Source: Lentimicrobium sp. L6
Lineage (GTDB): Bacteria; Bacteroidota; Bacteroidia; Bacteroidales; UBA12170
Direction of reading: 5' to 3'
DNA length: 32,148 bases
Assembly: GCF_013166655.1 (NCBI RefSeq)
Contig: NZ_JABKCA010000063.1
Span: 1 to 32,148, forward strand
Shown: positions 2,004 to 32,124 of the stretch, one piece after another
Numbering within the stretch: position 1 is the first letter of the stretch
Layout: each line of letters starts with the position of its first letter
Translations under genes and position numbers: made by a program
Notes under the pieces: model-generated
The model's database searches: none
What the model was told of the DNA's origin: nothing
What the model saw: the letters and a program-made list of their open reading frames with translations, nothing else

Positions 2004-2090
2004 GCTGCAAAGTAAATGCAAAATGCATTGTTTTAATCACTTTTTGTAAATTTATTTTCATTCAAAATTGACATCTGATTGAACAAATAT

Positions 2091-2098
2091 TATATTTG
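2091..2098 (+). promoter_or_regulatory. Bacteroidota promoter (-33 TTG / -7 TATATTTG)
   Basis: TATATTTG matches TAnnTTTG exactly, and TTG at 2068-2070 lies 20 bp upstream, inside the expected 17-23 bp spacing. This is the best complete -33/-7 pair in the window. The start codon follows 22 nt later at 2121. Confidence 0.7.
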
Positions 2099-2120
2099 TT
2101 TGTCTATAAATACGTTTATT

Positions 2121-3791
2121 ATGAAATATATTATCTCTTTTTTATTGTTATTTAGTATATCTATAACATATCTGCAGTCTCAAAATACTAAAACGCAAAA
2201 AGAAAGCGAAATTCCGAAATTCTTTACTATTGATGAGATCGAGTATTTTCCACTACAAGAATTAGATTGGTTATTGGATTCTGCTTACAATTATTTAAGT
2301 TCACCCGAACTCATTTGGAGACCAAGCAGAATAACAAGAATAGCTGACAGAACTTTAACAGGTCTTCCATTGGTATTTGAAGAGCTAGGTTACGATTCAC
2401 AACTCGAGGAATATTTTATAAAGATTAAACATACTTGGGAGTACCCTGATATCAATAATAGAAATGTATATACGAAGTCTTTATTTAGTATTTATCAAGA
2501 AACTGGATTAACTACACCTTATTCAAGATACACCTACATTAATGATGAAAACGGTCTTGTTTCTGAAATCAATGAAGAGTTTTATAATAATTCATGGTAT
2601 GGGGAAAAAACAGTATCTTATATGTCAAATACTGAAAACTATACTGAGAGATATTTTAGAAACAATGAAAACGAAGAATGGAATTTTAGAGGAAAAGGTC
2701 ATAATTATGATGATATAATTAATCAGCGACTCGTATCCTATTCTATGGAATATTTAGATACTATAGTAAAATCATACTGGTATTATAATTCTGAAGGCCA
2801 CAAATTTTTGTTCGAGAGATATTTTAGGGATGACAACAATTTTTGGCTTAAAAAGTATAAAGCAAATTATATGTATAATGATAATAATGAAGAAATTGGA
2901 TACAACCATTATTACTTTACCGACAACAATTGGATTCATTTAGATTCTATTATAAACACTTATGATGATTTTGGGTTTTTAAATTCAACAACTTGGATAC
3001 AATGGAGGTCAAGTGGATATTGGAAATTCAAAGAAAAAACAGACTATGTTAATGATAGTTTAGGTAACATTTTAATGGAGTTGAGCTTTAACGATATTGC
3101 TGACACCGTTTGGGTAAGATCTCAAAAATGGGAATACATTTTTAATAACAATCATCAAATGATCGAAAAGGTTAAAAGCTCTTTTTATGCTGATATAAAC
3201 AGTTTCAGAAATAGGACTAAATGGAATTGGGAATATGATAATGATTTATTATTAAGCTATAGTATATACACATGGGACATTGCAGATTCGTTTTGGTTAC
3301 CTAAAGAAGCAGAAAGAACAGAATATGACAACCAAAATAGAAAAATATTCTTTATAAAGGAGCGAAGAGATTCAACAAATCAATATTGGGTTCCAGATTA
3401 TAAGACAGAAGAAGAATATTTCGACTCAGAAATACAAATTATTCGTAGTGGAGTTTACTTTGACTATAATGTAAATGAAAGTATTTGGGATAGTACCTCA
3501 AAAGGTCTTACATATTGGAATAAATACCTCACCAGTACCAATGAACTCCCAATAAACACCTTCAAGCTCTACCCTAATCCAAGTACAGAATTCATTATTA
3601 TTGAATCTGATATTTACCATTCACAAAAAACAACTTATGAGATTTTTGATATACAAGGGCATATCCTTAATTCAGGAAAACTCTCTCCTGATGGAATGAT
3701 TAAAATTAATCAATTGACAAAAGGCCAGTATTTTGTGAAAGTTTATAATCCTGAAGGCAGAGCATTGACTTTGAGTTTTGTAAAGAATTAA
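2121..3791 (+). CDS. T9SS-exported aromatic-rich repeat protein
   Basis: A secreted protein of unknown function, about 556 residues. The start at 2121 (MKYIISFLLLFS) gives a clean signal peptide ending near LQSQN; an in-frame ATG at 2079 lies upstream of and inside the promoter and is rejected. The body is built of degenerate repeats of roughly 30-45 residues rich in Tyr, Trp, Asn and Asp (for example WxYxNxxG, YxxDxNNFW, WEYDND, YDNQNRK), reminiscent of YD/RHS-like beta-strand repeats but without a toxin or RHS core. The C-terminus has a type A T9SS sorting domain: LYPNPSTEF followed by a beta-rich segment ending in ALTLSFVKN. It is therefore predicted to cross the outer membrane and be released or anchored. 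A damaged relative lies at 31170-32124: both have the DWLLDS motif after the signal peptide and a proline-leucine-FEE motif about 30 residues on. Confidence 0.85.
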   Translation: MKYIISFLLLFSISITYLQSQNTKTQKESEIPKFFTIDEIEYFPLQELDWLLDSAYNYLSSPELIWRPSRITRIADRTLTGLPLVFEELGYDSQLEEYFIKIKHTWEYPDINNRNVYTKSLFSIYQETGLTTPYSRYTYINDENGLVSEINEEFYNNSWYGEKTVSYMSNTENYTERYFRNNENEEWNFRGKGHNYDDIINQRLVSYSMEYLDTIVKSYWYYNSEGHKFLFERYFRDDNNFWLKKYKANYMYNDNNEEIGYNHYYFTDNNWIHLDSIINTYDDFGFLNSTTWIQWRSSGYWKFKEKTDYVNDSLGNILMELSFNDIADTVWVRSQKWEYIFNNNHQMIEKVKSSFYADINSFRNRTKWNWEYDNDLLLSYSIYTWDIADSFWLPKEAERTEYDNQNRKIFFIKERRDSTNQYWVPDYKTEEEYFDSEIQIIRSGVYFDYNVNESIWDSTSKGLTYWNKYLTSTNELPINTFKLYPNPSTEFIIIESDIYHSQKTTYEIFDIQGHILNSGKLSPDGMIKINQLTKGQYFVKVYNPEGRALTLSFVKN

Positions 3792-4217: not shown

Positions 4218-5510
4218 ATGAATAATATAGTTTATGTGGGGATGAGTGCAGATATGGTTCATCCTGGTCATTTGAACATTATAAAAGAAGCTGCCAAATT
4301 AGGAGAAGTTACGATTGGTTTATTAACTGATAAAGCCATAGCCTCCTATAAAAGATTACCAGCTTTGGAATATGAGCAACGTAAAATAATCATTGAAAGT
4401 ATAAAAGGGGTTAGCCAAGTTATTCCTCAGCATGAATTAGATTACTCTGTTAATTTAAAGAAGATAAAACCTGCATTTGTAGTGCATGGCGATGATTGGA
4501 AAGATGGAATTCAAAAAATAACACGCCAAAGGGTCATTGAAACTCTTAATGAATGGGGTGGTAAACTTCATGAAGTACCTTACACCAAAGGAATATCCTC
4601 AACCCAGCTTAACCAAAGTTTAAAAGAAATAGGAACTACCCCTCAAATTAGAATGGCAAAATTAAGACGATTAATTGATGCCAAACCAATTGTAAGAGTG
4701 ATGGAGGCTCACAATGGTCTTACTGGTCTTATTGTAGAAAATCTAACTGTTGATAAAGAGGGTAAGAAGAAAGAATTTGATGCCATGTGGCTAAGTAGTC
4801 TCACGGATTCAACAGCAAAAGGAAAGCCAGATATTGAAGCTGTTGATGTTACCTCAAGATTACATAGCTTAAATGATATTTTGGAAGTAACAACCAAACC
4901 TATTATTTATGATGGTGACACTGGTGGTATTCCTGAACATTTCTTATTCACAGTAAAAACATTAGAACGTCTTGGGGTATCTGCTATCATTATTGAAGAT
5001 AAAACAGGCTTAAAGAAAAACTCTCTATTTGGAACTGATGTTGCTCAAACACAAGATTCTATTGAGAATTTCTGTCTAAAAATAGAAACTGGAAAGAAAG
5101 CTCAAATTACTGATACTTTCATGATTATTGCTCGTATTGAAAGCCTTATTTTAAAGCAAGGTATGGAGGATGCTTTAAAAAGAGCAAAAGCCTATATTCA
5201 AGCTGGTGCCGATGGTATTATGATTCATAGTAAGGAAAAAAGCTCAGATGAGATTTTAGAGTTTTGTGAGAAGTACAAGCAATTTGAAAATAAGAAACCA
5301 TTGATTGTTGTTCCATCAAGCTATAATCATATTTACGAAAGTGAACTCATTGAAGCAGGTGCTAATGTGGTCATTTATGCCAATCATTTATTACGTAGCG
5401 CTTATCCAGCCATGGTTGATGTAGCAAAAACCATCCTAGAAAACGAGCGCTCCAGCGAAGTTAACGATAGATGTATGCCAATTAAAGAGATTCTTACTCT
5501 TATCAAATAA
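4218..5510 (+). CDS. aepX: PEP mutase with fused N-terminal cytidylyltransferase domain
   Basis: A two-domain enzyme for the first step of phosphonate biosynthesis. Residues 1-135 are a nucleotidyltransferase fold: HPGH at 15-18 is the HxGH nucleotide-binding motif, and KGISST near residue 130 is the matching C-terminal motif of cytidylyltransferases. Residues about 145-430 are a PEP mutase of the isocitrate-lyase superfamily: DGDTGG at 232-237 (Mg site) and the diagnostic [10 protein letters not shown] at 260-269 (EDKxGxKxNS), which separates true mutases from lyases. It converts PEP to phosphonopyruvate; the fused domain would activate a later phosphonate with CTP. An unfavourable equilibrium means it needs the decarboxylase encoded next. 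The symbol follows the Bacteroides fragilis capsule gene. The family call is firm; the CMP-phosphonate role of the N-domain is inferred. Confidence 0.94.
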
Positions 5511-5590: not shown

Positions 5591-6712
5591 ATGATCAAAC
5601 CTAGCCATTTCTATAATTTCCTAATAAAAAAGAACATAAGCTTTTTTACAGGAGTTCCTGATTCATTATTAAAAGATATATGTGCCTATATTACAGATAA
5701 TACTTCTGCACAAAACCACATCATTGCTGCAAACGAAGGGAATGCAATTGCTCTTGCTGCTGGATATCACATGGCGACAAATAAAATACCCATGGTCTAT
5801 ATGCAAAATTCAGGTATAGGAAATGCTGTCAACCCACTTCTCTCCCTTACTGATGAAGAAGTATACAAAATTCCTTTATTGATGATGATTGGATGGCGCG
5901 GTGAAAAAAAAGATGAACCCCAACATATAAAGCAAGGAAAAGTTACAGCTGATTTGCTGGATGCGATGAAGATTCCTTATCTGATACTTGATGATGACGA
6001 ACAAAAAGCTCAGATTCAATTAGAAGAAGCAATACTTAAAATTAATGAGACCAACACTGCTTTCGCTATTATCATAAGAAAAGGAACTTTCGAAAAATAC
6101 AGCATCAAGAATAAACTAAAAACTAATTATTCTCTTTTGCGTGAGGATGCCATAAAAATCATTGTAAACCAATTGAGCGGCGATGAACTAATTGTTTCTA
6201 CAACCGGCAAAACTTCACGAGAACTTTTCGAATACAGAGTTGAGAAAAACCAAAAACATAATGCCGATTTCTTAACCGTAGGTTCCATGGGACACGCTAG
6301 TCAAATTGCACTTGGAATTGCATTGAACAAACCCAATAGGAAAATCATCTGCATTGACGGTGATGGCGCTTTATTAATGCAAATGGGTGGTCTTTCTATT
6401 ATTGGAGCTCAATCACCCAAAAACCTTTTGCACATAGTCATAAATAATGGTGCGCATGAGTCCGTTGGAGGACAACCTACGGTTGCATTTGGACTTGACA
6501 TTCCTCAAATTGCCATAGCCAACAAGTATAAATCTGCAGTGCAAGTAGCAAATGCTCAAGAATTAGAACTTGCATTGAAAAAGTTGACAGAAAACTCTTA
6601 TCCTGCACTTATTGAAATATTAACCAAAACAGGTTCACGTGATAATCTTGGTCGACCAACAATTAAACCTGTTGACAATAAAACAAACTTTATGCAAAAT
6701 CTAGCTCAATAG
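5591..6712 (+). CDS. aepY: Phosphonopyruvate decarboxylase (TPP-dependent)
   Basis: A thiamine-diphosphate enzyme that decarboxylates phosphonopyruvate to phosphonoacetaldehyde, the irreversible step that pulls the PEP mutase reaction forward. The 373-residue length fits phosphonopyruvate/sulfopyruvate decarboxylases rather than the ~550-residue pyruvate decarboxylase class. The N-terminal half is the PYR domain with FTGVPDSLL and the cofactor-activating glutamate in AANEGNA (E49); MQNSGIGNAVNPL is the family signature. The C-terminal half has the TPP/Mg motif GDG (257-259) with the matching NN after ...LHIVINN, then GAHESVGGQPT, typical of phosphonopyruvate decarboxylase. It follows the PEP mutase by 80 bp, with a hairpin in the gap, and is separated from the next gene by one base. 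Sulfopyruvate decarboxylase is the closest alternative; the neighbours decide against it. Confidence 0.94.
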   Translation: MIKPSHFYNFLIKKNISFFTGVPDSLLKDICAYITDNTSAQNHIIAANEGNAIALAAGYHMATNKIPMVYMQNSGIGNAVNPLLSLTDEEVYKIPLLMMIGWRGEKKDEPQHIKQGKVTADLLDAMKIPYLILDDDEQKAQIQLEEAILKINETNTAFAIIIRKGTFEKYSIKNKLKTNYSLLREDAIKIIVNQLSGDELIVSTTGKTSRELFEYRVEKNQKHNADFLTVGSMGHASQIALGIALNKPNRKIICIDGDGALLMQMGGLSIIGAQSPKNLLHIVINNGAHESVGGQPTVAFGLDIPQIAIANKYKSAVQVANAQELELALKKLTENSYPALIEILTKTGSRDNLGRPTIKPVDNKTNFMQNLAQ

Positions 6713-6713
6713 C

Positions 6714-7829
6714 ATGCAGATAGTATTTAAAGAAAATAGAGCGGAATTAACGGAACTTATTAAAGTCAAAAAATACAAGAATATCTTTCTGGTAAAAGGA
6801 GGCAAATCTTATACAGAATCTGGAGCTAAGAAATTTATTGAAGATACATTTCAAATCACAGATAGTTTCTCTGGCTTTGATAATAATCCACAGATAGAAG
6901 ATTTAAAAAAAGGTATTGAAAATTTTCAGCAAAAGCCTTACGATTGTATCATTGCCATTGGAGGCGGAAGTGTTTTGGATATGGCAAAACTAATTAGTGT
7001 TTTTACCCACCAAAGTCATAGTATTGAAGATATTATCTTAAATAATAGTAAGATTAATAATCAAAAGACTCCCCTATTAGCTATTCCTACCACTTCTGGA
7101 ACAGGGGCAGAAGCTACAGCATTCTCTGTTTTATATGTAAACAAGAAAAAGTATTCAGTAGCCAGCAAAACCATGCTCCCCAATTATGCTTATTTGTCTT
7201 CTTCCTTCTCATTAACTGCAAATAAATATTTAACGGCTTGTACTGGCGCAGATGCTTTTTGTCAAGCAGTTGAGTCAATTTGGAGCATCAATTCAAATTC
7301 TGAATCCCAAGAATATGCCTTAAAAGCTATTGAACTTGCATGGAAAAACCTTCCCAAAGCTGTAAACAATAATGCCAAAGCAAAAGAACTGATGCTAGAA
7401 GCATCCTTTTTGGCTGGGAAGGCCATCAATATCAGTAAGACCACAGCCCCACATGCCATATCTTATGCCTTCACTAGTTATTATGGAATCCCTCATGGAC
7501 ATGCCGTTAGTTTAAGCTTAGCTTATTTTTTCGAATTCAATTGCTATGTATCTCAGTCCAATTGCAATGATAAAAGAGGGAAAGAGGAAGTATTAAACCG
7601 ATTAAAAAAGATTTTAAGCATATTGGGTTCAAACGAAACCACAATAAAAAATGATTTAAACAGTTTTTTCAAATCAATTGGTCTAGAAAACAAAATCTCT
7701 ATATTAATAGAGAGTTTTAATCCAGAATTGATAATAGAGAATGTGAATATTCAAAGGTTGAAAAACAATCCTCGAAATATAGAATCAAAAGAACTACAAA
7801 ATTTTATTAATCTATTAGAGCAAGATTAA
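6714..7829 (+). CDS. Iron-containing alcohol dehydrogenase family, likely phosphonoacetaldehyde reductase
   Basis: A group III (Fe-ADH) dehydrogenase of 371 residues. The nucleotide-binding motif GGGSVLDMAK is at 83-92 and the family motif PTTSGTGAEAT follows at 125-135. Candidate metal ligands are D180, H247 (TAPHAISY) and H261 (GIPHGHAVSL). The second classical ligand position, usually His four residues after the Asp, is Gln here (Q184 in GADAFCQAVES). The gene sits one base after the decarboxylase where many phosphonate loci carry a 2-aminoethylphosphonate transaminase, so the likely reaction is NAD(P)H reduction of phosphonoacetaldehyde to 2-hydroxyethylphosphonate. The family is certain; the substrate is inferred from the neighbours. 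Confidence 0.88.
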   Translation: MQIVFKENRAELTELIKVKKYKNIFLVKGGKSYTESGAKKFIEDTFQITDSFSGFDNNPQIEDLKKGIENFQQKPYDCIIAIGGGSVLDMAKLISVFTHQSHSIEDIILNNSKINNQKTPLLAIPTTSGTGAEATAFSVLYVNKKKYSVASKTMLPNYAYLSSSFSLTANKYLTACTGADAFCQAVESIWSINSNSESQEYALKAIELAWKNLPKAVNNNAKAKELMLEASFLAGKAINISKTTAPHAISYAFTSYYGIPHGHAVSLSLAYFFEFNCYVSQSNCNDKRGKEEVLNRLKKILSILGSNETTIKNDLNSFFKSIGLENKISILIESFNPELIIENVNIQRLKNNPRNIESKELQNFINLLEQD

Positions 7830-7897: not shown

Positions 7898-9145
7898 ATG
7901 ATAGGGATTCTACTATATATTGATCCAGCTTCAACTAGTGCTTTACTGTATATTATTATTGCAATTGCTGCTACTTTAGGCTTTGCTTTACGTGGCTTTT
8001 TCTATAAAGTTAAAAATCTATTTCTTGGAAAAGGCTTTGTGAACACAAATGATTTTGAACATATTGACATCATCTTTTATTCCGAGGGAAAACAATATTG
8101 GCATGTTTTTTCTCCTATCATTAAAGCCCTTGTAAACAGAGACATTGAATGCGCCTATATTAGCTCTGATGAAAACGACCCTGGATTAAAATACAATTCC
8201 CCTCTTTTGCATACCAAATATATTGGTAACCTGACCATGACTTCGGTTTATTTAAACAAACTGAAAGCTAAATTTGTTGGGATGACAACACCTCAACTAG
8301 ACGTGATGATGATACGCCGCTCTAAGCATGTTAAGCATTACGCACACATCGTTCATGCTCCAATTGATGTATTTACCTATAGAAAATTTGCATTTGACTA
8401 TTTTGATTCTGTATTTTGCTCAGGTCCTCATCAAATGGAAGGAATAAGAAAGCTAGAAGAAAAAAGAGGCACCCATAAAAAACAACTACTAGAAACTGGT
8501 TTCACAGTCTATGACAAGATGTTAGAAGATATCAAAAGCCTACCAAAACCAAACAAATCAAGACCCGTTGTTTTAATTGCACCAACCTGGAAAGAATACT
8601 CTATTATCAATAGGTTTGGCCTTGATTTCTTTGAGAACCTATTAAAAGATGATTCCTACGATATTATTTTACGTCCTCACCCACAAACCTATGTGAGCCA
8701 TCCTAAACTTATTGCTCAAATAGAGGAGCGATTGAAAAACGAAAGACATGTTAGCATAGATAGAGAGTCCCTCGGAACAGAAAGTATGCTTAAAGCTGAT
8801 ATGATGATCAGCGATTTATCAGGAGTCTTTTGGGATTTTATATTTCTTTATTCTAAACCAGTATTGCTTTTAAAAACCGACTTTGAATCCATCGAAGGTT
8901 TTGAAGGGAGTGAGTTAGATTATGAAATGTGGGAAATGAGAGAAAGGAGTAAAGCCGGTCAAGTGTTTGATGAAAACGACATTAAAAACATAAGTGGCAT
9001 AGTAAGGAATTTACTTGACCATCCTCCTCTTACCCAATTAGAAGAATTAAGAGACCAATCTGTTTACCATTTTGGCCATGCTGGTGAAACAGCTGCCAAT
9101 CAGATTTTGGAGATTGTAGAGAAAATAAATATGAACCAGCAATAA
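7898..9145 (+). CDS. Membrane-anchored CDP-glycerol glycerophosphotransferase-like protein
   Basis: A 415-residue transferase of the teichoic-acid CDP-glycerol:poly(glycerophosphate) glycerophosphotransferase family. Residues 1-45 hold a short hydrophobic segment with the motif YIDPxxTS at its start, then a basic stretch, so the enzyme is tethered with its catalytic part in the cytoplasm. The catalytic half shows VVLIAPTWKEYS, LRPHP (R259-P262) and SDLSGVFWDF (305-314), equivalents of the family's conserved HP and SDxSS regions. Family members move an alcohol phosphate from a CDP carrier to a hydroxyl. In this cluster the donor could be CMP-hydroxyethylphosphonate and the acceptor a surface glycan or lipid; that is inference. 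It is 68 bp from the previous gene with no promoter box, so it probably belongs to the same transcript. Confidence 0.85.
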   Translation: MIGILLYIDPASTSALLYIIIAIAATLGFALRGFFYKVKNLFLGKGFVNTNDFEHIDIIFYSEGKQYWHVFSPIIKALVNRDIECAYISSDENDPGLKYNSPLLHTKYIGNLTMTSVYLNKLKAKFVGMTTPQLDVMMIRRSKHVKHYAHIVHAPIDVFTYRKFAFDYFDSVFCSGPHQMEGIRKLEEKRGTHKKQLLETGFTVYDKMLEDIKSLPKPNKSRPVVLIAPTWKEYSIINRFGLDFFENLLKDDSYDIILRPHPQTYVSHPKLIAQIEERLKNERHVSIDRESLGTESMLKADMMISDLSGVFWDFIFLYSKPVLLLKTDFESIEGFEGSELDYEMWEMRERSKAGQVFDENDIKNISGIVRNLLDHPPLTQLEELRDQSVYHFGHAGETAANQILEIVEKINMNQQ

Positions 9146-9153
9146 AATAAAGA

Positions 9154-12100
9154 ATGAATATTTTTGAGCAAATCATGTCACCTTTTATATATATTATTGA
9201 GCAAATTCTATTGTTCAGTTATAGTATAACCGGAAATTACGGTATATCAATTATCATATTAAGCTTTTCTATATCTCTTCTATTATTGCCGGTTTTTATC
9301 TACATTGAAAAATCCAAAAAAAAGGATGATATAGTAAAGAAAAAAATGCAACCTCTTATTGATGAAATCAAAAGAGTGTATAAAGGACAAGAACGATTTT
9401 ATTATATCAAAACCATCAACAGACAGCATAATTACAGTTCTTTTAAGGCATTAATTCCAATATTAAGTCTATTATTACAGATTCCTTTTTTTATTGCAGC
9501 CTATCAATTTCTTGAAAATTTCGAACCTCTTAATGGAGTTAGTTTTTGGTTTATACCTAACCTTAGTCAGCCAGATGGTTTTTTGGGAAGTATTAATATC
9601 TTACCCATCATTATGACATTAGTAAACCTAATCACAGTTTACTTTTACACTAAAAATGGGGACTCCGGAGAACGTAAGCAAATGTTGGTTCTTGCCATTG
9701 CATTTTTAGTTTTACTTTTCAACCTCCCCTCTGGATTAGTTCTGTATTGGACTATGAATAATGTTTTTAGCTTTTTCCGATTATTCATTACTAACCCTGA
9801 AGTGTTTCAAAGTAAAAAGACCTATCCCATAAATCGAATAAAAACCGATTATAAAGAGAACCTTTTCTCCCTAAGGATCATTTTTACTGCCTTAGTAACA
9901 ATAGCCTTCGTTTCACAGTTTATCTGGGCCTTTCAACATAATTTCGATGATATTTACCTAAGGTTAGGTTTTGCATTTTTTTTTAGTTTCGTTCTAACTT
10001 TTATTGCATTCCTATTTATAATTATTTTTAGAAATAACAGGGAAGCTATTGTCAATTTCAAAGTTTCTCCTTTTTACTTTAATTCATTATTATTTCTTTC
10101 CATATATTTCTTCATTGCGGCAAATTTATATTTCTCTGGCGAGAACAAAGAATTATATATCATCACTCTTATTGTATTAATACTATCTCAATTCGTAGGA
10201 TATGTATATACTTTAAGAGCAAAAAGAAATACAAATAAATATCTTTTTATCCCTACACAAATTATCCTAATTAGCTTGTTGGTATATCAGCTTTTAGTCT
10301 CTAGTTCGGTATTAAATGGTGAAGAATTCTCCTTTTCTATCGCAAAACTAAACCTAATAATAACCCCTTCCTCTTGGTCTGATTTAATTTTGCCTGGTTT
10401 TTTGTTTTCTTTTATTACCATGTTTTATTATTATTCAATAGTTCCAAAAAGTAGGAATGCCAAAACTCAAACTAGTTTCCAAATCTATTCTCTTTCAATT
10501 TTTTATGTTCTAGGTTTAATTTTTTTCTGGAATCCAATCTTAAGTTTAGCTTCATTCCCAGAAGCATTTGAATACACTGGTATTGATATTATTAAAAACA
10601 ATATTCTCATTTTTATAATATCATCAGCTATAGCTTTAAGCATTTATTTCTTGATACCAAGTAGATTTAAGCAGTCCATTCTGATATTAGTCCTTATTGC
10701 TGTAATTACGACATTCATAAATACCTCTATAATACCTATTGATTTAGGAAGTTTACAAATAAATAAATTTGAGAAGGAAGCCAATCTTGCTACAGCCTCA
10801 TATTATTATATTTTAGAGGCATTTATTCTTCTTATTCTTGTCTATTATTCCAGAAAAATCCTTTTATCAAAAAAATCTAGGTTATTGAAATTTGGATTAA
10901 TAGCCCTTAATATAATAATCATTAGTCAAAGCTTAAACTCTTCAATTCAATCTGACAGTTTTTATAGAACAAACTCCAAACAAGAAATGGTAGAAACATT
11001 TGATCCAAACCAGGATCTCATCCGCTTCTCAAAAACTGAAAAGAATATCGTTTTTATCCTTCCTGATATGTTCCAAGGTTGGAGTATGAACAAAATCCTA
11101 AAAGACAATCCAGAATACAAAGATGTTTTTTCGGGCTTTGTTTGGTATCCAAACACTCTATCAATCTCTAGAGTTACAAACACGTCTGTACCAGGAATGT
11201 TAGGGGGATTTGAATTTTATCCAAACATACTAAATCAGGATTCTTTAACTTCAAACAGAGTTAAAACTACCAATGCAATGAAAAATCTTATTCATAAAGC
11301 CCATGATAAAGATTTTCAAATTACTATGACTAAATTCCCATATACCAATATGGATGATATTAGCCACAATCATAAACTCCCTATTTGGAGTGACCATTGG
11401 AATTTACATAAAAACGAACTAAATATTGCTAAAGCAACTGATAATGGCTTTAAAATCCTTACCCAAAATGCATTGTTTTATTCTGCCCCATTATTCCTTA
11501 AACCAAAAATTTACAACCAAATGAAATTAGGGAGTTCAGAAACAGAATCACTGAATGAAAGACGAAAAAACACTTGGATAGCAAAGAAATATAATTTTCT
11601 TCGCTTGCTCCCTTATATTTCAACAGCAGAGGATGAAAACCCAAATTTTATTATGATATATTCTAGTGTCCCACATTTTCCTTGGAATTATATTGATGAT
11701 GATGGAGTATTAATTTCGGATGTTTCTCCTACTAAAAGTGCTCAATGGTCTCTCGAAAAATTTGCGCTTTGGATCAAATGGATGAAAGACAATGATGTTT
11801 ATGATAACACAAAAATAGTGATTGCCTCAGATCATGGAACCACCTGGGAAAAGTATAAACCAGGTTTAGATATTGATAATCCATTCAAAAATTACGAAGA
11901 TAAAGGCCAATTGCTTTATGATATGTTATTTCAGCTGAATGCCCTACTATTTGTTAAGGACTATAATAGCCAAGGACAAGTAAAAGAAGACTGGAGAATG
12001 ATGAGTAATGCTGATGTTAATTCAATTATGTTTGAAGAAGAAAACCCAACTATTGGAGCTCCTCCAAAGCATAGAACACTTACTGGTTATGTATCTTGGT

Positions 12101-12207
12101 GGAATAAGAAAATAGATACCGAAACTCAATATAACATACAACATGGTTATCAAGTTAAGAATAATATTTTCGATGCAAATAACTGGGAAAAAATTAATAC
12201 CAAATAA
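9154..12207 (+). CDS. Fusion: YidC/Oxa1-like domain + polytopic region + alkaline-phosphatase-superfamily domain
   Basis: One uninterrupted 1017-residue frame with three parts. Residues 1-215 resemble the YidC/Oxa1 insertase core: a first helix ending in LLLLP, a basic hairpin with MQPLIDEIKRVYKG, then IPILSLLLQIPFFIAAYQFL (compare the canonical LPMLLQIPIFIALY) and LFNLPSGLVLYWTMNN. The groove arginine expected in the first helix is Ser (S41). Residues about 240-595 contain roughly ten more membrane helices of unknown type. Residues about 625-910 form an extracytoplasmic sulfatase / phosphoethanolamine-transferase-like domain: LPDMFQG (D638), candidate nucleophile in VTNTSVPGM (T675 or T677), SVPHFPW (H841) and ASDHG (D893-H894). 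Last gene of the phosphonate cluster, 8 bp after the previous stop. A role in moving or placing a phosphonate/phosphate-bearing group on a surface molecule is inferred. Confidence 0.85.
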   Translation: MNIFEQIMSPFIYIIEQILLFSYSITGNYGISIIILSFSISLLLLPVFIYIEKSKKKDDIVKKKMQPLIDEIKRVYKGQERFYYIKTINRQHNYSSFKALIPILSLLLQIPFFIAAYQFLENFEPLNGVSFWFIPNLSQPDGFLGSINILPIIMTLVNLITVYFYTKNGDSGERKQMLVLAIAFLVLLFNLPSGLVLYWTMNNVFSFFRLFITNPEVFQSKKTYPINRIKTDYKENLFSLRIIFTALVTIAFVSQFIWAFQHNFDDIYLRLGFAFFFSFVLTFIAFLFIIIFRNNREAIVNFKVSPFYFNSLLFLSIYFFIAANLYFSGENKELYIITLIVLILSQFVGYVYTLRAKRNTNKYLFIPTQIILISLLVYQLLVSSSVLNGEEFSFSIAKLNLIITPSSWSDLILPGFLFSFITMFYYYSIVPKSRNAKTQTSFQIYSLSIFYVLGLIFFWNPILSLASFPEAFEYTGIDIIKNNILIFIISSAIALSIYFLIPSRFKQSILILVLIAVITTFINTSIIPIDLGSLQINKFEKEANLATASYYYILEAFILLILVYYSRKILLSKKSRLLKFGLIALNIIIISQSLNSSIQSDSFYRTNSKQEMVETFDPNQDLIRFSKTEKNIVFILPDMFQGWSMNKILKDNPEYKDVFSGFVWYPNTLSISRVTNTSVPGMLGGFEFYPNILNQDSLTSNRVKTTNAMKNLIHKAHDKDFQITMTKFPYTNMDDISHNHKLPIWSDHWNLHKNELNIAKATDNGFKILTQNALFYSAPLFLKPKIYNQMKLGSSETESLNERRKNTWIAKKYNFLRLLPYISTAEDENPNFIMIYSSVPHFPWNYIDDDGVLISDVSPTKSAQWSLEKFALWIKWMKDNDVYDNTKIVIASDHGTTWEKYKPGLDIDNPFKNYEDKGQLLYDMLFQLNALLFVKDYNSQGQVKEDWRMMSNADVNSIMFEEENPTIGAPPKHRTLTGYVSWWNKKIDTETQYNIQHGYQVKNNIFDANNWEKINTK

Positions 12208-16190: not shown

Positions 16191-18152
16191 ATGAAGTTAT
16201 CTGTTATTATTGTCAATTATAATGTCAAGCACTTTTTAGAACAGTGTTTGAATTCTGTGCATCAAGCAACTCAACATGTAGATGCAGAAGTATGGGTGGT
16301 AGACAATAACTCGGTGGATCAATCGGTTGAAATGGTTCGAGAGAAATTTCCTGAGGTTTTGTTGATCGCCAATAAAGACAATCCTGGATTCTCAGTTGCT
16401 AATAATCAGGCCATTAAAAAAAGCAAGGGTGAATATGTTTTATTATTAAACCCCGACACCATAGTTGAAGAATTGACTTTTAAGAAGGTTGTGGATTTTA
16501 TGGATGCACATTCTGATGCTGGTGGCCTTGGAGTAAAAATGGTAGATGGAAATGGCAACTTCCTTCCAGAATCTAAAAGAGGTCTCCCTACTCCTGCTGT
16601 TGCTTTTTATAAGATATTTGGTTTAGCTGCTATTTTCCCAAAATCAAAAACATTTGGAAAATATCATTTGGGATATCTAGATAAGGAAGAAACCAATGAA
16701 ATAGAAGTGCTTTCTGGTGCTTTTATGCTCATGCGTAAGAAAACCTTAGATGAAGTTGGCTTATTAGATGAGACTTTCTTTATGTATGGAGAAGATATCG
16801 ATCTTTCTTATAGAATTACTTTGGGTGGATATAAAAATTATTATTTCCCAGAAACTAGAATCATTCATTATAAAGGAGAAAGCACAAAAAAAGCTAGTGT
16901 GAGCTATGTTTTCACCTTCTATCAAGCCATGATTATTTTTGCCAAGAAACATTTTAGTCTTCGCTATGCCAGTTTATTTACTTTACTGATTAATTTTGCG
17001 ATTTACATGAGAGCTGGGGCTTCTATTGCAAAAAGAATTCTCAACAGAATCTTCTTTCCTGTATTAGATGCTGGAATTTTATATTTTGGATTCTATATGA
17101 TCAAGCAATATTGGGAACAAACTTGGCTAATTCCAACAGGCAGCTACTACCCTCCTCTTTATTTACATTATATCGTCCCCATATACATATCCATACTACT
17201 CGGAGGAGTCTTATTAACTGGAGGATATGACAAGCCTTATCAAGTGCCAAAACTCGTAAAAGGCTTATTCTTTGGTATCATTACCATCTTAGTTATGTAT
17301 GCTTTAATTCCAGATAATTACCGATATAGTAGAGCTATTATCATAGCTGGGACCTTCTGGGGTTTTATTTCTCTTTCCGGTTATCGCTTTGCATTGCAAT
17401 TGGCTGGAGTTTCCGCATTTAATAATGAGGAGGCCAGAAAAAATAGAATTGCTGTGCTTGGTTCCATAGAGGAATCCAATAGAGTAGCTGGTCTAATCAG
17501 CAATATGAAACAGACAAGCTTTATAGGTTTAGTTGGGCTGGACGAGCAGGATAGAAAACAAGAAAACGTTATTGGTTTAGCAGCGCAGTTACAAGATATC
17601 ATTAGGGTTTATAGTATTGGTGAAGTTATCTTTTGCGCCAAAGATTTATCGGCTCAACATATTATCGACCAAATGATTCAGCTCCAAGATCAAGGAGTAG
17701 ATTATAAAATAGCTCCTCAAGAAAGCATGGCTATCATTGGTAGTAATAGTATAAATGCACATAGTGATCTATTTATGATTGAGGTAGATAGTGTTTCTAA
17801 GCCACAGAATAAAAGAAATAAAAGACTGATGGATATCGCACTGAGCATACTCTTCCTTCTCACCTTACCTATTATCATTTGGATGGTGAAAGATAAGCTC
17901 GGTTTCATTAAAAACATTTTCTGTGTGCTTTTCTCAAGAAAAACTTGGGTGGCTTATTATCTAGGTTCTATAGACCAAGAAGTGAAATTACCTAATCTTA
18001 AAAAAGGAGTATTAAACCCAGGAAACGCCTTTACTAAGGAAGATTTAAGTGATGATACACTTTCCCGACTTAACCTTCTCTATTCTAGAGATTATAAAAT
18101 CACCACTGATTTAGAGATTATCTGGAAGGGATTTTCTTTTTTGGGGAATTAG
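16191..18152 (+). CDS. Family 2 glycosyltransferase fused to a sugar-phosphate-transferase-like membrane/Rossmann region
   Basis: A 653-residue membrane protein for surface polysaccharide or lipid-linked glycan assembly. Residues 1-255 are a GT2 domain of the rhamnosyltransferase type: VIIVNYN, VVDNNS, the metal-binding NPDT (87-90) and FMYGEDIDLSYR (GEDID 200-204). Residues about 258-400 contain several membrane helices. From R419 (RIAVLGSIEESNRVAG) there is a Rossmann-like domain matching the central region of WcaJ-type polyprenyl-phosphate sugar-1-phosphate transferases, followed by NKRLMDIALSILFLLTLP, the form of their next membrane hairpin. The catalytic part of such transferases is absent; only about 90 residues follow. 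The GT2 half is probably the active one and the rest may anchor or regulate. Own promoter box; the lipoprotein gene follows 80 bp on. Confidence 0.82.
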   Translation: MKLSVIIVNYNVKHFLEQCLNSVHQATQHVDAEVWVVDNNSVDQSVEMVREKFPEVLLIANKDNPGFSVANNQAIKKSKGEYVLLLNPDTIVEELTFKKVVDFMDAHSDAGGLGVKMVDGNGNFLPESKRGLPTPAVAFYKIFGLAAIFPKSKTFGKYHLGYLDKEETNEIEVLSGAFMLMRKKTLDEVGLLDETFFMYGEDIDLSYRITLGGYKNYYFPETRIIHYKGESTKKASVSYVFTFYQAMIIFAKKHFSLRYASLFTLLINFAIYMRAGASIAKRILNRIFFPVLDAGILYFGFYMIKQYWEQTWLIPTGSYYPPLYLHYIVPIYISILLGGVLLTGGYDKPYQVPKLVKGLFFGIITILVMYALIPDNYRYSRAIIIAGTFWGFISLSGYRFALQLAGVSAFNNEEARKNRIAVLGSIEESNRVAGLISNMKQTSFIGLVGLDEQDRKQENVIGLAAQLQDIIRVYSIGEVIFCAKDLSAQHIIDQMIQLQDQGVDYKIAPQESMAIIGSNSINAHSDLFMIEVDSVSKPQNKRNKRLMDIALSILFLLTLPIIIWMVKDKLGFIKNIFCVLFSRKTWVAYYLGSIDQEVKLPNLKKGVLNPGNAFTKEDLSDDTLSRLNLLYSRDYKITTDLEIIWKGFSFLGN

Positions 18153-26545: not shown

Positions 26546-26689
26546 ATAAATATGTAACTCAACACTATAGTTAAAAACATAAGATTTGATAATAATTTGA
26601 TAAATCACGCAACTATTTTGACCTTTTTAAAGTCTATCAGTCTATACAGCTGGTTAATTCTGTATTTCTGCTTATTAAATGCTCGTAAC

Positions 26690-28252
26690 ATGAATAAATT
26701 ATACACTTTCATTTTATCACTTATTGCTATTTCCAGCACGGCTCAAATCAGCCCCTATTCCAAAGTATTATGGGCTGCTGGGGATATTAGTACACAAGCG
26801 TATTCATCTAGCCAGTCATTTGATAATAAAACCTTTATTATTGGTGAATACTTTGGCATCCATAAGTCCTTTGTTATGAAAATAGATGATTTTGGAGACC
26901 CTATTTGGACAAAAACGATTGCACAGGTAGATAATAACCATGAACCTAGGCTTATCAATATAATTAGTACTCTTGATTCTTGTCAGTTTATACTTGGGAG
27001 TATTTTAAATCAAAACAATAGCAATCAAGATGCTTTCTTTGCGAAAATGGATAGAAATGGGGTATTACTTTGGACAAAAACCAATAATTTAGGTGGATTG
27101 GTAAATGTTAGCGAAACTGCGGATAGTGGATTTATCTTAACAGGAGAACATGACTTTTCTAGTAGCGCCTATAAACAATTATCTGTGGTGAAAATCACTA
27201 AAAATGGTAGTCTAGAATGGTCAAGAATCATTCGTTTTGGTACAGCTTTAAGTAAAGGTTTATCTGCTATTCAAAATGAAAACGGTAATTTTATCATCAC
27301 TGGACATTATAAAAATGAAAACGAAACTAAAACCACAGCTTTATTAGCAGAGCTCTCTAATACAGGAGAAATCAATTGGTGCTATGGTTATAAAAATCCT
27401 ACTTTAGGTTATCACTATGAAATTGAAGATGTTCTCATTTATAATGATGAATACTATACATTGATGAATAATGACATGAATAGTATCTTAATGAAGACGG
27501 ACTCTTTAGGTAATGTGGTATCTGCAAAAGAAATAATCGGTTCTGGATATTATGATATTGGTTATGGGATTAAAAGAAAGCTCCACATTAACAATCAAAA
27601 TGAATTACTCTTTATTCACACAAATGGAATAGGCGGTTTTATAAAAACAGATTTAAACGCCGAAGCTATTATTAATGGAAACGTGTTTTTGCCGATTATT
27701 GATATACAATTCAAAGAGCAAAACAAACTTTTAGCTATTGGCAATGGCCCCTTAATGGGTGTGAAAAGCGCACCCCCCCCCCCGTACGAAACTATTGGGC
27801 TTATTCAAATGGACGATGAAGGAAATGGGATTGATTGTACTGAAGGCTCTTACGAAGGTTATTCAGAAGATTTCGAATTACAACAATTGAGCACCGAATA
27901 TATCATTGAAGGCGGAGGAATAAGTACAAATATTGCTATTGAAATCGATTTGATTGACATAGATCAAAGAGATGGTTGTGTTGATTTTATTGGAGGTATT
28001 GAAAACATACCAGATAATTTGGTTTCAGTGTATCCAAACCCAAGCCAAGGAATAATCAATATTGATTTTGAAGAGATGATTGATGCCAAGCTATACATTA
28101 TCAATCCATTCGGGCAAATCATACACCAGGAAACAATAAACCAACAACAATTTAAAATAGACTTAAATCGCTTCGGAAACGGAGTTTATTTATACCACAT
28201 TGAGTCTGATAAAGCGTTTATCTCCTCAGGTCACTTTATCCTCAATAACTGA
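26690..28252 (+). CDS. T9SS-exported protein with delta-60-like repeats and a poly-C tract
   Basis: A secreted protein of about 520 residues, function unknown. The start at 26690 (MNKLYTFILSLIAISS) gives a normal signal peptide ending at TAQ; the frame is open further upstream but that segment is not signal-like. The body holds repeats of the form K-x-D-x-x-G-x-x-x-W (KIDDFGDPIWTKT, KMDRNGVLLWTKT, KITKNGSLEWSRI), typical of beta-propeller-like surface proteins of this phylum. The C-terminus is a type A T9SS sorting domain starting VYPNPSQG and ending HFILNN. Eleven consecutive C at 27773-27783 encode APPPPY; a change of one base would shift the frame and remove the sorting domain. A near-match box TATTTCTG lies about 20 nt upstream of the start. 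Confidence 0.83.
   Translation: MNKLYTFILSLIAISSTAQISPYSKVLWAAGDISTQAYSSSQSFDNKTFIIGEYFGIHKSFVMKIDDFGDPIWTKTIAQVDNNHEPRLINIISTLDSCQFILGSILNQNNSNQDAFFAKMDRNGVLLWTKTNNLGGLVNVSETADSGFILTGEHDFSSSAYKQLSVVKITKNGSLEWSRIIRFGTALSKGLSAIQNENGNFIITGHYKNENETKTTALLAELSNTGEINWCYGYKNPTLGYHYEIEDVLIYNDEYYTLMNNDMNSILMKTDSLGNVVSAKEIIGSGYYDIGYGIKRKLHINNQNELLFIHTNGIGGFIKTDLNAEAIINGNVFLPIIDIQFKEQNKLLAIGNGPLMGVKSAPPPPYETIGLIQMDDEGNGIDCTEGSYEGYSEDFELQQLSTEYIIEGGGISTNIAIEIDLIDIDQRDGCVDFIGGIENIPDNLVSVYPNPSQGIINIDFEEMIDAKLYIINPFGQIIHQETINQQQFKIDLNRFGNGVYLYHIESDKAFISSGHFILNN
27773..27783 (+). repeat. C11 homopolymer inside the T9SS gene
   Basis: Eleven consecutive C between GCA and GTAC, inside the coding region, encode four prolines together with the following G. 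Such a tract stands out in AT-rich DNA and is prone to slipped-strand length change. Confidence 0.95.
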
Positions 28253-31169: not shown

Positions 31170-32124
31170 ATGAAAAAAAATATTCATCTCTCTATCGCTT
31201 ATAGTTATTCTTTTTCCAATTATTTCGAAATCACAAAACACAAATCCTTACCAATACCTTAAGGCTAATAATGATTGGCTCCTAGATTCAATTTTTGAAT
31301 ACAAGAATCATTATGGTGGAGACCAAACCATGAGCCGAATAAAAAGCAGAAATCCATATAACTTTCCTTTATTCGAAGAAACGTAAAAATTTAATTTTGA
31401 TACACAAGAATATGAATTTTCCTATTCCACTGAATATGAATACCCCATAGAATATGATACTACAGAATACACTTTCATTAATACATATCGTTTTAGTGAT
31501 GATGACATTGATAGGATGAGGTATTACCTTAATTATAATGATAATGGTTATAAGACGTCTTCAGAGGAATATTGGGATACAGATCATTGGTCATTTGGTC
31601 AAATGGAGAAGTTAAAGCATTCTAAAAATTATTCGACATATCATTTGCAAAAGCTCCGCAGATACTCAGAAAGCGAGAATTGGATCTTATACGAAGTACA
31701 AAGTTCTAATTATAATGAAGACTCAACAATATTATCAAGTTTTCTAGTCAAAATAGAAGCCGAAACCACCGACACTCTGACAGTAACGCATACCTATTAT
31801 GATAATGAGGGAAACTGGATATTATATGAGAATTTTAAAAAGCAAGATGAAGATTGGTATCTACATTATAAAGTAATATGGACTTATAATTCAGAGAATT
31901 TAATATCAGAATCTTTGAGTTTTACTGAATATGATGGCGCTTTAATAAACAATAACAAAAGTATTTTCAAATATGATGAGCATAACTATTTATCTTACGA
32001 AGCTTCGTATGATTGGGATAAGAATGATGAAATTTGGGAATATGATGTCCTGACTACCTATGAGAATGATAGCAATGGTAATATCCTTAAAAGGTATCAC
32101 CACTACCAAGCCCATCTTGCCTAA
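31170..32124 (+). pseudogene. Broken paralogue of the T9SS aromatic-repeat protein (frameshift plus stop)
   Basis: From the ATG at 31170 the frame stops after 30 codons (TAA 31260-31262). Eight A follow the ATG (31173-31180). With seven, the reading becomes MKKIFISLSL then a hydrophobic signal peptide ending near SKSQN, and continues into DWLLDSIFEY, matching the DWLLDS region of the protein at 2121-3791. That frame then meets an in-frame TAA (31384-31386) just after PLFEET, and resumes in the same frame with Tyr/Trp/Asn-rich repeats (for example WILYENFKK, YNSENL, FKYDEHNY) to a stop at 32122-32124. No sorting domain is seen before that stop. An internal ATG at 31516 could restart translation but lacks a signal. 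Most likely a decaying or phase-off paralogue; sequencing error is possible for the A-run. Confidence 0.75.

Follow-up and report, generated by a model that had tools for sequence, protein, structure and literature searches.

Why should a YidC/Oxa1-like domain be joined in one polypeptide to a domain of the kind found in surface phosphotransferases, and this in a gene that lies in one run with genes for phosphonate biosynthesis? The question is raised by a locus of Lentimicrobium sp. L6 (GCF_013166655.1, contig NZ_JABKCA010000063.1, positions 1-32,148; this whole stretch of 32,148 nucleotides is referred to as the window), in which positions 9154-12207 form a single uninterrupted frame with an ATG start that encodes a protein of 1017 amino acids. 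The gene is named YDS in this work, and residue numbers are those of its open reading frame (ORF). As detailed below, YDS belongs to a protein family that forms a two-gene module with a Glyphos_transf protein (PF04464); both family and module are real, widespread, and, as far as the literature was searched, undescribed. The family probably installs small phosphorus-containing head groups at the cell surface by an undescribed route. According to Rice et al. 2019 (PMC6697681), phosphonates are activated as cytidine monophosphate (CMP) conjugates, and the steps that follow formation of the C-P bond in the tailoring of cell-surface phosphonates are enigmatic. The pair represents a concrete candidate for the steps after CMP activation in Bacteroidales and spirochaetes. 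If this is true, the Oxa1/YidC fold would serve something other than protein insertion, and would do so in one polypeptide with a textbook surface phosphotransferase.

The Fusion Family and Its Partner

A scan of contigs yielded 175 stretches encoding relatives of YDS, of which the best 80 were retained. They correspond to 74 loci, distributed over Bacteroidales, Clostridia, spirochaetes (mainly Treponema), and other groups. The YidC-like and the C-terminal domain lie within one ORF in 111 cases (83 + 28, including a few repeat fetches of the window or of locus L003); outside Bacteroidales, the middle domain has mostly diverged too far to be picked up by BLAST. Three of the loci come from chromosome records (L022, CP123443.1; L031, NZ_CP009228.1; L053, NZ_CP067089.2) and have the same domain order, and a fusion created by faulty assembly, a concern attached to the first-pass annotation of the window, could be rejected on the strength of these three and of the 74 loci as a whole. 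Of 295 genomes from the window's order, 6 carry the fusion, as do 108 of 191 genomes from the order of Treponema putidum (the spirochaete sample in the following); these counts depend on author-chosen E-value cut-offs between 1e-30 and 1e-60. The architecture had been noted at first sight as unfamiliar, and this impression holds as far as the literature was searched: among the matches listed from full-text literature, to which most subscription papers do not belong, no title or abstract opening describes a YidC-transferase fusion, and the main text of Rice et al. 2019 (PMC6697681) mentions neither YidC nor insertases nor sulfatases.

The gene directly preceding YDS encodes the Glyphos_transf partner, which matches PF04464 with 48.8 bits (cut-off 22.1) over residues 187-345 only. 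A partner gene encoded on the same strand is at most two genes away in 56 of the 74 loci, with the partner first in 24 and the fusion first in 32. Within the window's order, the partner occurs in exactly the six genomes that carry the fusion (Fisher 1e-12, relatedness ignored), and the spirochaete sample contains 106 genomes with both genes, two with the fusion only, none with the partner only, and 83 with neither, the partner set being the fusion set minus two genomes when the lists were compared by eye. Co-occurrence is hence seen in two phyla, with differing gene order. The fusion is coupled to the Glyphos_transf encoded upstream, and the functional unit consists of two genes and is not limited to phosphonate loci. 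The N terminus of the partner is hydrophobic and carries a YIDP-type motif, in which conservation of Y7, D9, P10, and S14 reaches 90 % or more across 62 sequences. As a side observation, this stretch (in the partner at 7898-9145 and in those of loci L003-L076) may perhaps act as a membrane anchor that contacts the YidC-like domain.

Domain Architecture and Catalytic Residues

The N-terminal part of YDS had been annotated as a YidC-like core comprising residues 1-215, and sequence and profile searches bear this out. PF02096 (60KD_IMP) is matched at 7.8e-26 by the whole protein and at 2e-27 by the N terminus in isolation (residues 29-214), TIGR03592 exceeds its cut-off of 84.3 with 94.2-99.3 bits, and both sequence and profile searches retrieve YidC sequences from the PDB. 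Judged by sequence, the five-helix core is a member of the YidC/Oxa1 superfamily by descent. An AlphaFold2 (AF2) model of the fusion built with 98 sequences (mean predicted local distance difference test score, pLDDT, 89.9; predicted template modeling score, pTM, 0.73) shows a YidC-like core, in which the first long helix is followed by a hairpin, and behind this core 11 long helices in residues 226-600 and an alpha/beta domain. A membrane domain behind the core had been anticipated with about ten helices, so that its presence was confirmed and only the count had to be revised. Folded alone (residues 224-604), the middle domain likewise gives a confident model (pLDDT 90.4, pTM 0.83), which retrieves no fold match from the PDB at E <= 0.001; assignment to a known fold was rejected on this basis. 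Its length varies, with a median of 408 residues in the window and loci L003-L021 and of 265 residues in the remaining loci; the middle-domain alignment (A2) comprises 39 of 58 stretches prepared.

That the C-terminal part belongs to the alkaline phosphatase superfamily, as originally proposed, is corroborated by both fold and profile. Foldseek matches of the whole model are led by PbgA/YejM (1.2e-8), MCR-1 (2.7e-7), sulfatases, and LtaS among the best 50 of 466, and no YidC chain is among these best 50 of 466; the full model aligns with PbgA over 675 columns (TM score 0.20/0.33). In profile searches, the N terminus retrieves YidC and the C terminus retrieves sulfatases, LtaS, and MCR-1, whereas the Pfam Sulfatase model PF00884 stays below its gathering cut-off of 25 with 13.1 and 16.9 bits. 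EptA, MCR-1, and LtaS transfer phospholipid head groups. The short loops of the AF2 model, with helix limits set by the author from this model, contain 33 Lys and Arg residues on the inside as compared to 3 on the outside. By this count the last 419 residues, and with them the catalytic domain, are predicted to be extracytoplasmic.

The suggested active-site residues were evaluated in an alignment of YDS with 103 relatives that matched both domains and were long enough (L024 and L026 were included by name, and copies with truncations or broken frames were excluded), so that the resulting counts describe full-length proteins only. D638, T675, H841, D893, and H894 are present in 104 of 104 sequences. 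T677, which had been named along with them, is Thr in just 13 of 104; given this poor conservation, T675 is the likely nucleophile. In alignment A1, which retains 98 of the 104 sequences after six near-duplicate, partial, or further copies had been removed by hand, D638, T675, D893, and H894 are invariant and H841 is among the positions conserved to at least 90 %. On the evidence of these letters, the domain has the Thr nucleophile and the Asp, Asp-His, and His set of the EptA/MCR/LtaS type. Formylglycine sulfatases carry Cys or Ser at the nucleophile position, where the family has Thr throughout and neither of the two.

The YidC-like Domain and Its Groove

Does the N-terminal domain still work as an insertase? 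In the fusion family, groove position 41 is occupied by Thr in 57, Ser in 34, Asn in 5, Gln in 3, and Cys in 1 sequence, with 4 gaps, and thus by Lys or Arg in 0 of 100, whereas true YidC proteins of Bacteroidota have Lys in 17 of 17 cases (controls of 600-720 amino acids matched among the fetched relatives, from the window's order only). The charged groove of a functional YidC insertase is accordingly missing. Conversely, N158 and N202 are invariant and Y165 is conserved in 103 of 104 family members, three positions at which other residues prevail in the true YidC controls, and the invariant polar letters inside the core (N158, N202, N203, Y198, and W199) suggest that the groove still does something. 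The host genome furthermore carries a separate YidC (C3:90204-90797). Judging by its groove and by this separate copy, the YidC-like part is not an ordinary insertase, and an ordinary second YidC is disfavored by the comparison of the groove Lys with the true YidC controls. The idea in the first-pass annotation that an insertase fold has been recruited to hold or move a lipid or glycan substrate gains support from the loss of groove charge, the separate YidC, and the near-perfect co-occurrence with Glyphos_transf; the role toward a substrate is something that we infer.

Constant and Variable Parts of Tandem Copies

A feature absent from the earlier annotation is that tandem paralogues have the insertase-like segment as their constant part. 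Across 43 within-locus pairs of fusion proteins, the YidC-like domain averages 68.5 % identity, the middle domain 30.5 %, and the C-terminal domain 39.6 %, as compared to between-locus means of 51.9, 22.6, and 32.0 %. In L003 and L048, which belong to different phyla, codons 31-210 of the tandem copies are 100 % identical at the DNA level; past codon 210, identity in L048 drops at once to 59 %, whereas in L003 it drops only to 81 % and then stepwise. The copies in L007 are 100 % identical over codons 61-180, 93 % over the following block, and then 50 %, while the pair in L015 shows no block of 100 % identity and L009 a patchy one. Loci of the L003/L048/L007 type come from metagenome assemblies, which is why the T. 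putidum chromosome record was inspected as well. In this record, two copies share 856 bp at 99.2 % identity, ending near codon 262, and each of these two matches a third copy over about 800 bp at 94 %; two of the three are broken further on. In the same genome (L031), an array comprises some six fusion genes or gene remnants, roughly half of them broken by stops, with near-identical YidC-like segments in three.

The Donor Side and LicD

The phosphonate context recognized initially was confirmed, with phosphoenolpyruvate (PEP) mutase, phosphonopyruvate decarboxylase, and a dehydrogenase encoded directly upstream of the pair. In the window's order, PEP mutase is found in 6 of 6 fusion genomes as compared to 8 of 289 others (Fisher 3.5e-9). 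Seven of these eight match over the full fused length of the query; the eighth, G026, matches only over residues 146-427 (35 %), so that the fused domain is not shown in G026. As to the head group made in Lentimicrobium sp. L6, aminoethylphosphonate (AEP) was rejected as the product, since no AEP transaminase scores above cut-off in this 96.5 % complete assembly (weak matches of 40.5 and 37 bits versus 360.8). In Fom1, according to PMC6697681, the fused domain activates 2-hydroxyethylphosphonate (HEP) as CMP-HEP. Taken together with the dehydrogenase family and the lack of an AEP transaminase, this parallel makes HEP, activated as CMP-HEP, the probable head group in this genome.

Other members of the family appear to be supplied differently. 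In the spirochaete sample, PEP mutase occurs in 49 of 108 genomes with the fusion versus 6 of 83 without. A second candidate feed is the c6 gene, which encodes a LicC-like cytidylyltransferase fused to a threonine-phosphate-decarboxylase-like pyridoxal phosphate enzyme (e. g., L071 6942-8771) and may possibly provide a one-protein route from phosphoserine to the cytidine diphosphate (CDP) conjugate CDP-ethanolamine. At least one of PEP mutase and c6 is encoded by 79 of 108 fusion-bearing genomes versus 19 of 83 without the fusion, and both occur together in 7 genomes versus 14.4 expected, an overlap below expectation as alternative feeds would show. Of the 74 loci, 40 have a cytidylyl-activation gene in view, four have a TagD-like cytidylyltransferase, and seven contain PntC-AEPT-like genes, among these a neighbor in L076 that matches PntC-AEPT 6PD1 over its full length. 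By eye, an apparent S-adenosylmethionine-dependent methyltransferase gene precedes the pair in L024 (8150-8779, Fluviicola bin) and L026 (8126-8779, Bacteroidales bin); no clustered cytidylyltransferase gene is in view in these two loci, which may thus use another donor.

What takes the place of the pair where it is missing? The seven genomes of the window's order with full-length PEP mutase and without the fusion were sampled as seven control loci. LicD is encoded in four of them (L098, L101, L102, and L103) and adjoins the phosphonate genes in the first three, while LicD (PF04991) was not detected in nine scanned segments of the window, fusion and partner included. In this small sample, the pair hence tends to occupy the usual place of LicD.

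Proposed Mechanism and Alternatives

We lean slightly toward the view that the fusion and Glyphos_transf form a two-step relay, by which a phospho- or phosphono-head group, once activated, would pass from the cytosol to an acceptor beyond the inner membrane. Going by their families, the three upstream enzymes would make HEP and activate it as CMP-HEP, from which the membrane-anchored Glyphos_transf would transfer HEP to a lipid carrier on the inner side of the membrane. The YidC-like domain with its uncharged groove may then dock the partner, hold the loaded lipid, or both, and together with the membrane domain may carry the loaded lipid across, so that the C-terminal domain, the active-site letters of which are observed, could load the head group onto T675 and pass it to a surface acceptor. 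Elsewhere, the pair might be fed with CMP-aminoethylphosphonate, or probably with CDP-ethanolamine or a TagD-type CDP-alcohol. It would replace LicD, which presumably transfers the same type of donor directly in sister loci. A constant YidC-like part that serves the shared partner and donor side, along with variable middle and C-terminal parts that serve different acceptors, would also explain the pattern among tandem copies. A bolder version, which we regard as possible but doubtful, has the Oxa1/YidC fold turned into a lipid conduit whose charge-free groove takes the loaded lipid from Glyphos_transf and hands it across to the fused phosphotransferase, with tandem genes homogenizing the conduit and swapping acceptor modules as surface-decoration cassettes.

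The main alternative is that the YidC-like part is only a docking scaffold that recruits Glyphos_transf. In that case, phosphatidylethanolamine would supply the head group to the C-terminal domain, and the substrate of Glyphos_transf would be a separate lipid-linked glycan. Contact would then suffice for co-occurrence, and the known relatives of the C-terminal domain, which are fold matches, use phospholipid donors; a cytidylyl gene is moreover out of view in 34 of the 74 loci, a count that weighs against the relay as well. We nevertheless consider pure docking rather unlikely, because the association with CMP/CDP head-group genes and the replacement of LicD tie the pair to an activated donor and the invariant polar letters of the core suggest a groove that is still of some use. 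It is improbable that the N-terminal domain is a working second insertase, which would insert the variable domains of its own chain or partner proteins, with the fusion serving co-delivery only: the clear YidC/Oxa1 match and the YidC-like helix order of the model are in line with it, but the groove comparison, the genome's own YidC, and the co-occurrence with a head-group transferase are not. Little credit is likewise given to a C-terminal domain that acts as surface phosphatase, phosphonate monoesterase, or sulfatase and trims or salvages head groups instead of adding them. Profile matches indeed include the phosphonate monoester hydrolase 2w8s (E 3.1e-4) in addition to sulfatases; the nucleophile is, however, Thr without exception, unlike the Cys/Ser of formylglycine enzymes, and the gene sits among genes for synthesis, activation, and transfer.

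Several further observations weigh against the relay. The lipid intermediate, the donor, the acceptor, and the role of the YidC-like domain are all things that we infer; sequence and fold cannot separate a transferase from a hydrolase; and the homogenized YidC segments could reflect plain gene conversion without function. Regarding the partner, 18 of the 74 loci have none in view, some of them being cut short, while at least five genes are called on each side in the partnerless L040, L042, L050, L064, and L074; conversely, a Glyphos-like ORF (23 % identity) occurs without the fusion in control locus L097. The Fisher tests, moreover, ignore relatedness. On the donor side, six spirochaete genomes possess PEP mutase and lack the fusion, the PEP mutase of T. 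putidum is located about 34 kb from the fusion array, and c6 alone is weakly associated with the fusion (37/108 versus 13/83, p 0.0046), 13 of 50 c6 genomes matching only part of the gene, mostly the cytidylyltransferase half. Among the control loci, LicD in L103 lies at a distance of four called genes from PEP mutase, L097 has Capsule_synth, and L100 is by eye devoid of LicD within 18 kb; L099 is a contig of 3.2 kb with other frames only and hence uninformative.

Relation to Known Systems

With YidC/Oxa1 insertases, the fusion shares the N-terminal 215 residues, the modeled helix order, and the cytosolic hairpin, but it carries Thr, Ser, Asn, Gln, or Cys in place of the groove Lys/Arg, has invariant N158 and N202, and continues into a membrane domain and a catalytic domain. 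The resemblance to EptA/MCR-1, LtaS, and PbgA/YejM lies in the predicted outside domain with its Thr, Asp, Asp-His, and His residues that follows a membrane domain. EptA-type enzymes have a five-helix membrane anchor, in place of which the fusion has the YidC-like and the unmatched 11-helix domain. The LicC/LicD phosphocholine and PntC phosphonate pathways are alike in employing a CMP- or CDP-activated head group destined for the cell surface; here, Glyphos_transf and the fusion stand in the place of LicD. Finally, the partner shares PF04464 with Glyphos_transf enzymes of the teichoic acid type, but differs by its partial match and hydrophobic YIDP N terminus and, as far as the loci show, adjoins the fusion instead of a teichoic acid gene set.

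The Locus and Its Surroundings

YDS is the fifth and final gene of a run on the same strand, with intergenic gaps of 80, 1, 68, and 8 bases (Table 1).

Table 1. Genes of the five-gene run and domains of the fusion protein in the window.
Feature	Positions	Strand	Length or residues	Remarks
PEP mutase with fused N-terminal cytidylyltransferase	4218..5510	+		PF01467 + PF13714; TIGR02320 above cut-off
Phosphonopyruvate decarboxylase	5591..6712	+		TIGR03297 above cut-off
Iron-type alcohol dehydrogenase, probably phosphonoacetaldehyde reductase	6714..7829	+		best model TIGR03405, below cut-off
Partner Glyphos_transf (PF04464)	7898..9145	+	415 aa	hydrophobic YIDP N terminus
Fusion gene YDS	9154..12207	+	1017 aa	
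YidC/Oxa1-like domain	9154..9798	+	residues 1-215	groove position S41, not Lys/Arg
Eleven-helix membrane domain	9829..10953	+	residues 226-600	
Alkaline-phosphatase-superfamily domain	10999..12204	+	residues 616-1017	predicted outside; D638, T675, H841, D893, H894

According to ORFs read by eye, the run is surrounded mostly by housekeeping genes (e. g., purL downstream) and no polysaccharide cluster is seen. A defense system was rejected as explanation, as PADLOC gives no match for the fusion or its partner, and so was a plasmid-borne location, P0001 being without a match in PLSDB; no known RNA family reaches its gathering score within the window. The ORF at 16191-18152 combines a family 2 glycosyltransferase domain (residues 4-189) with a long half that contains membrane helices and received no Pfam name in the scan. 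By eye, a secreted-looking alkaline-phosphatase-like ORF lies at 40-1248 on the opposite strand, a few kb from the phosphonate genes. Three further ORFs (2079-3791, 26597-28252, and 31516-32124) resemble surface proteins of Bacteroidota on inspection, the first two with an apparent C-terminal sorting domain at their end and the first and third alike in their repetitive style.

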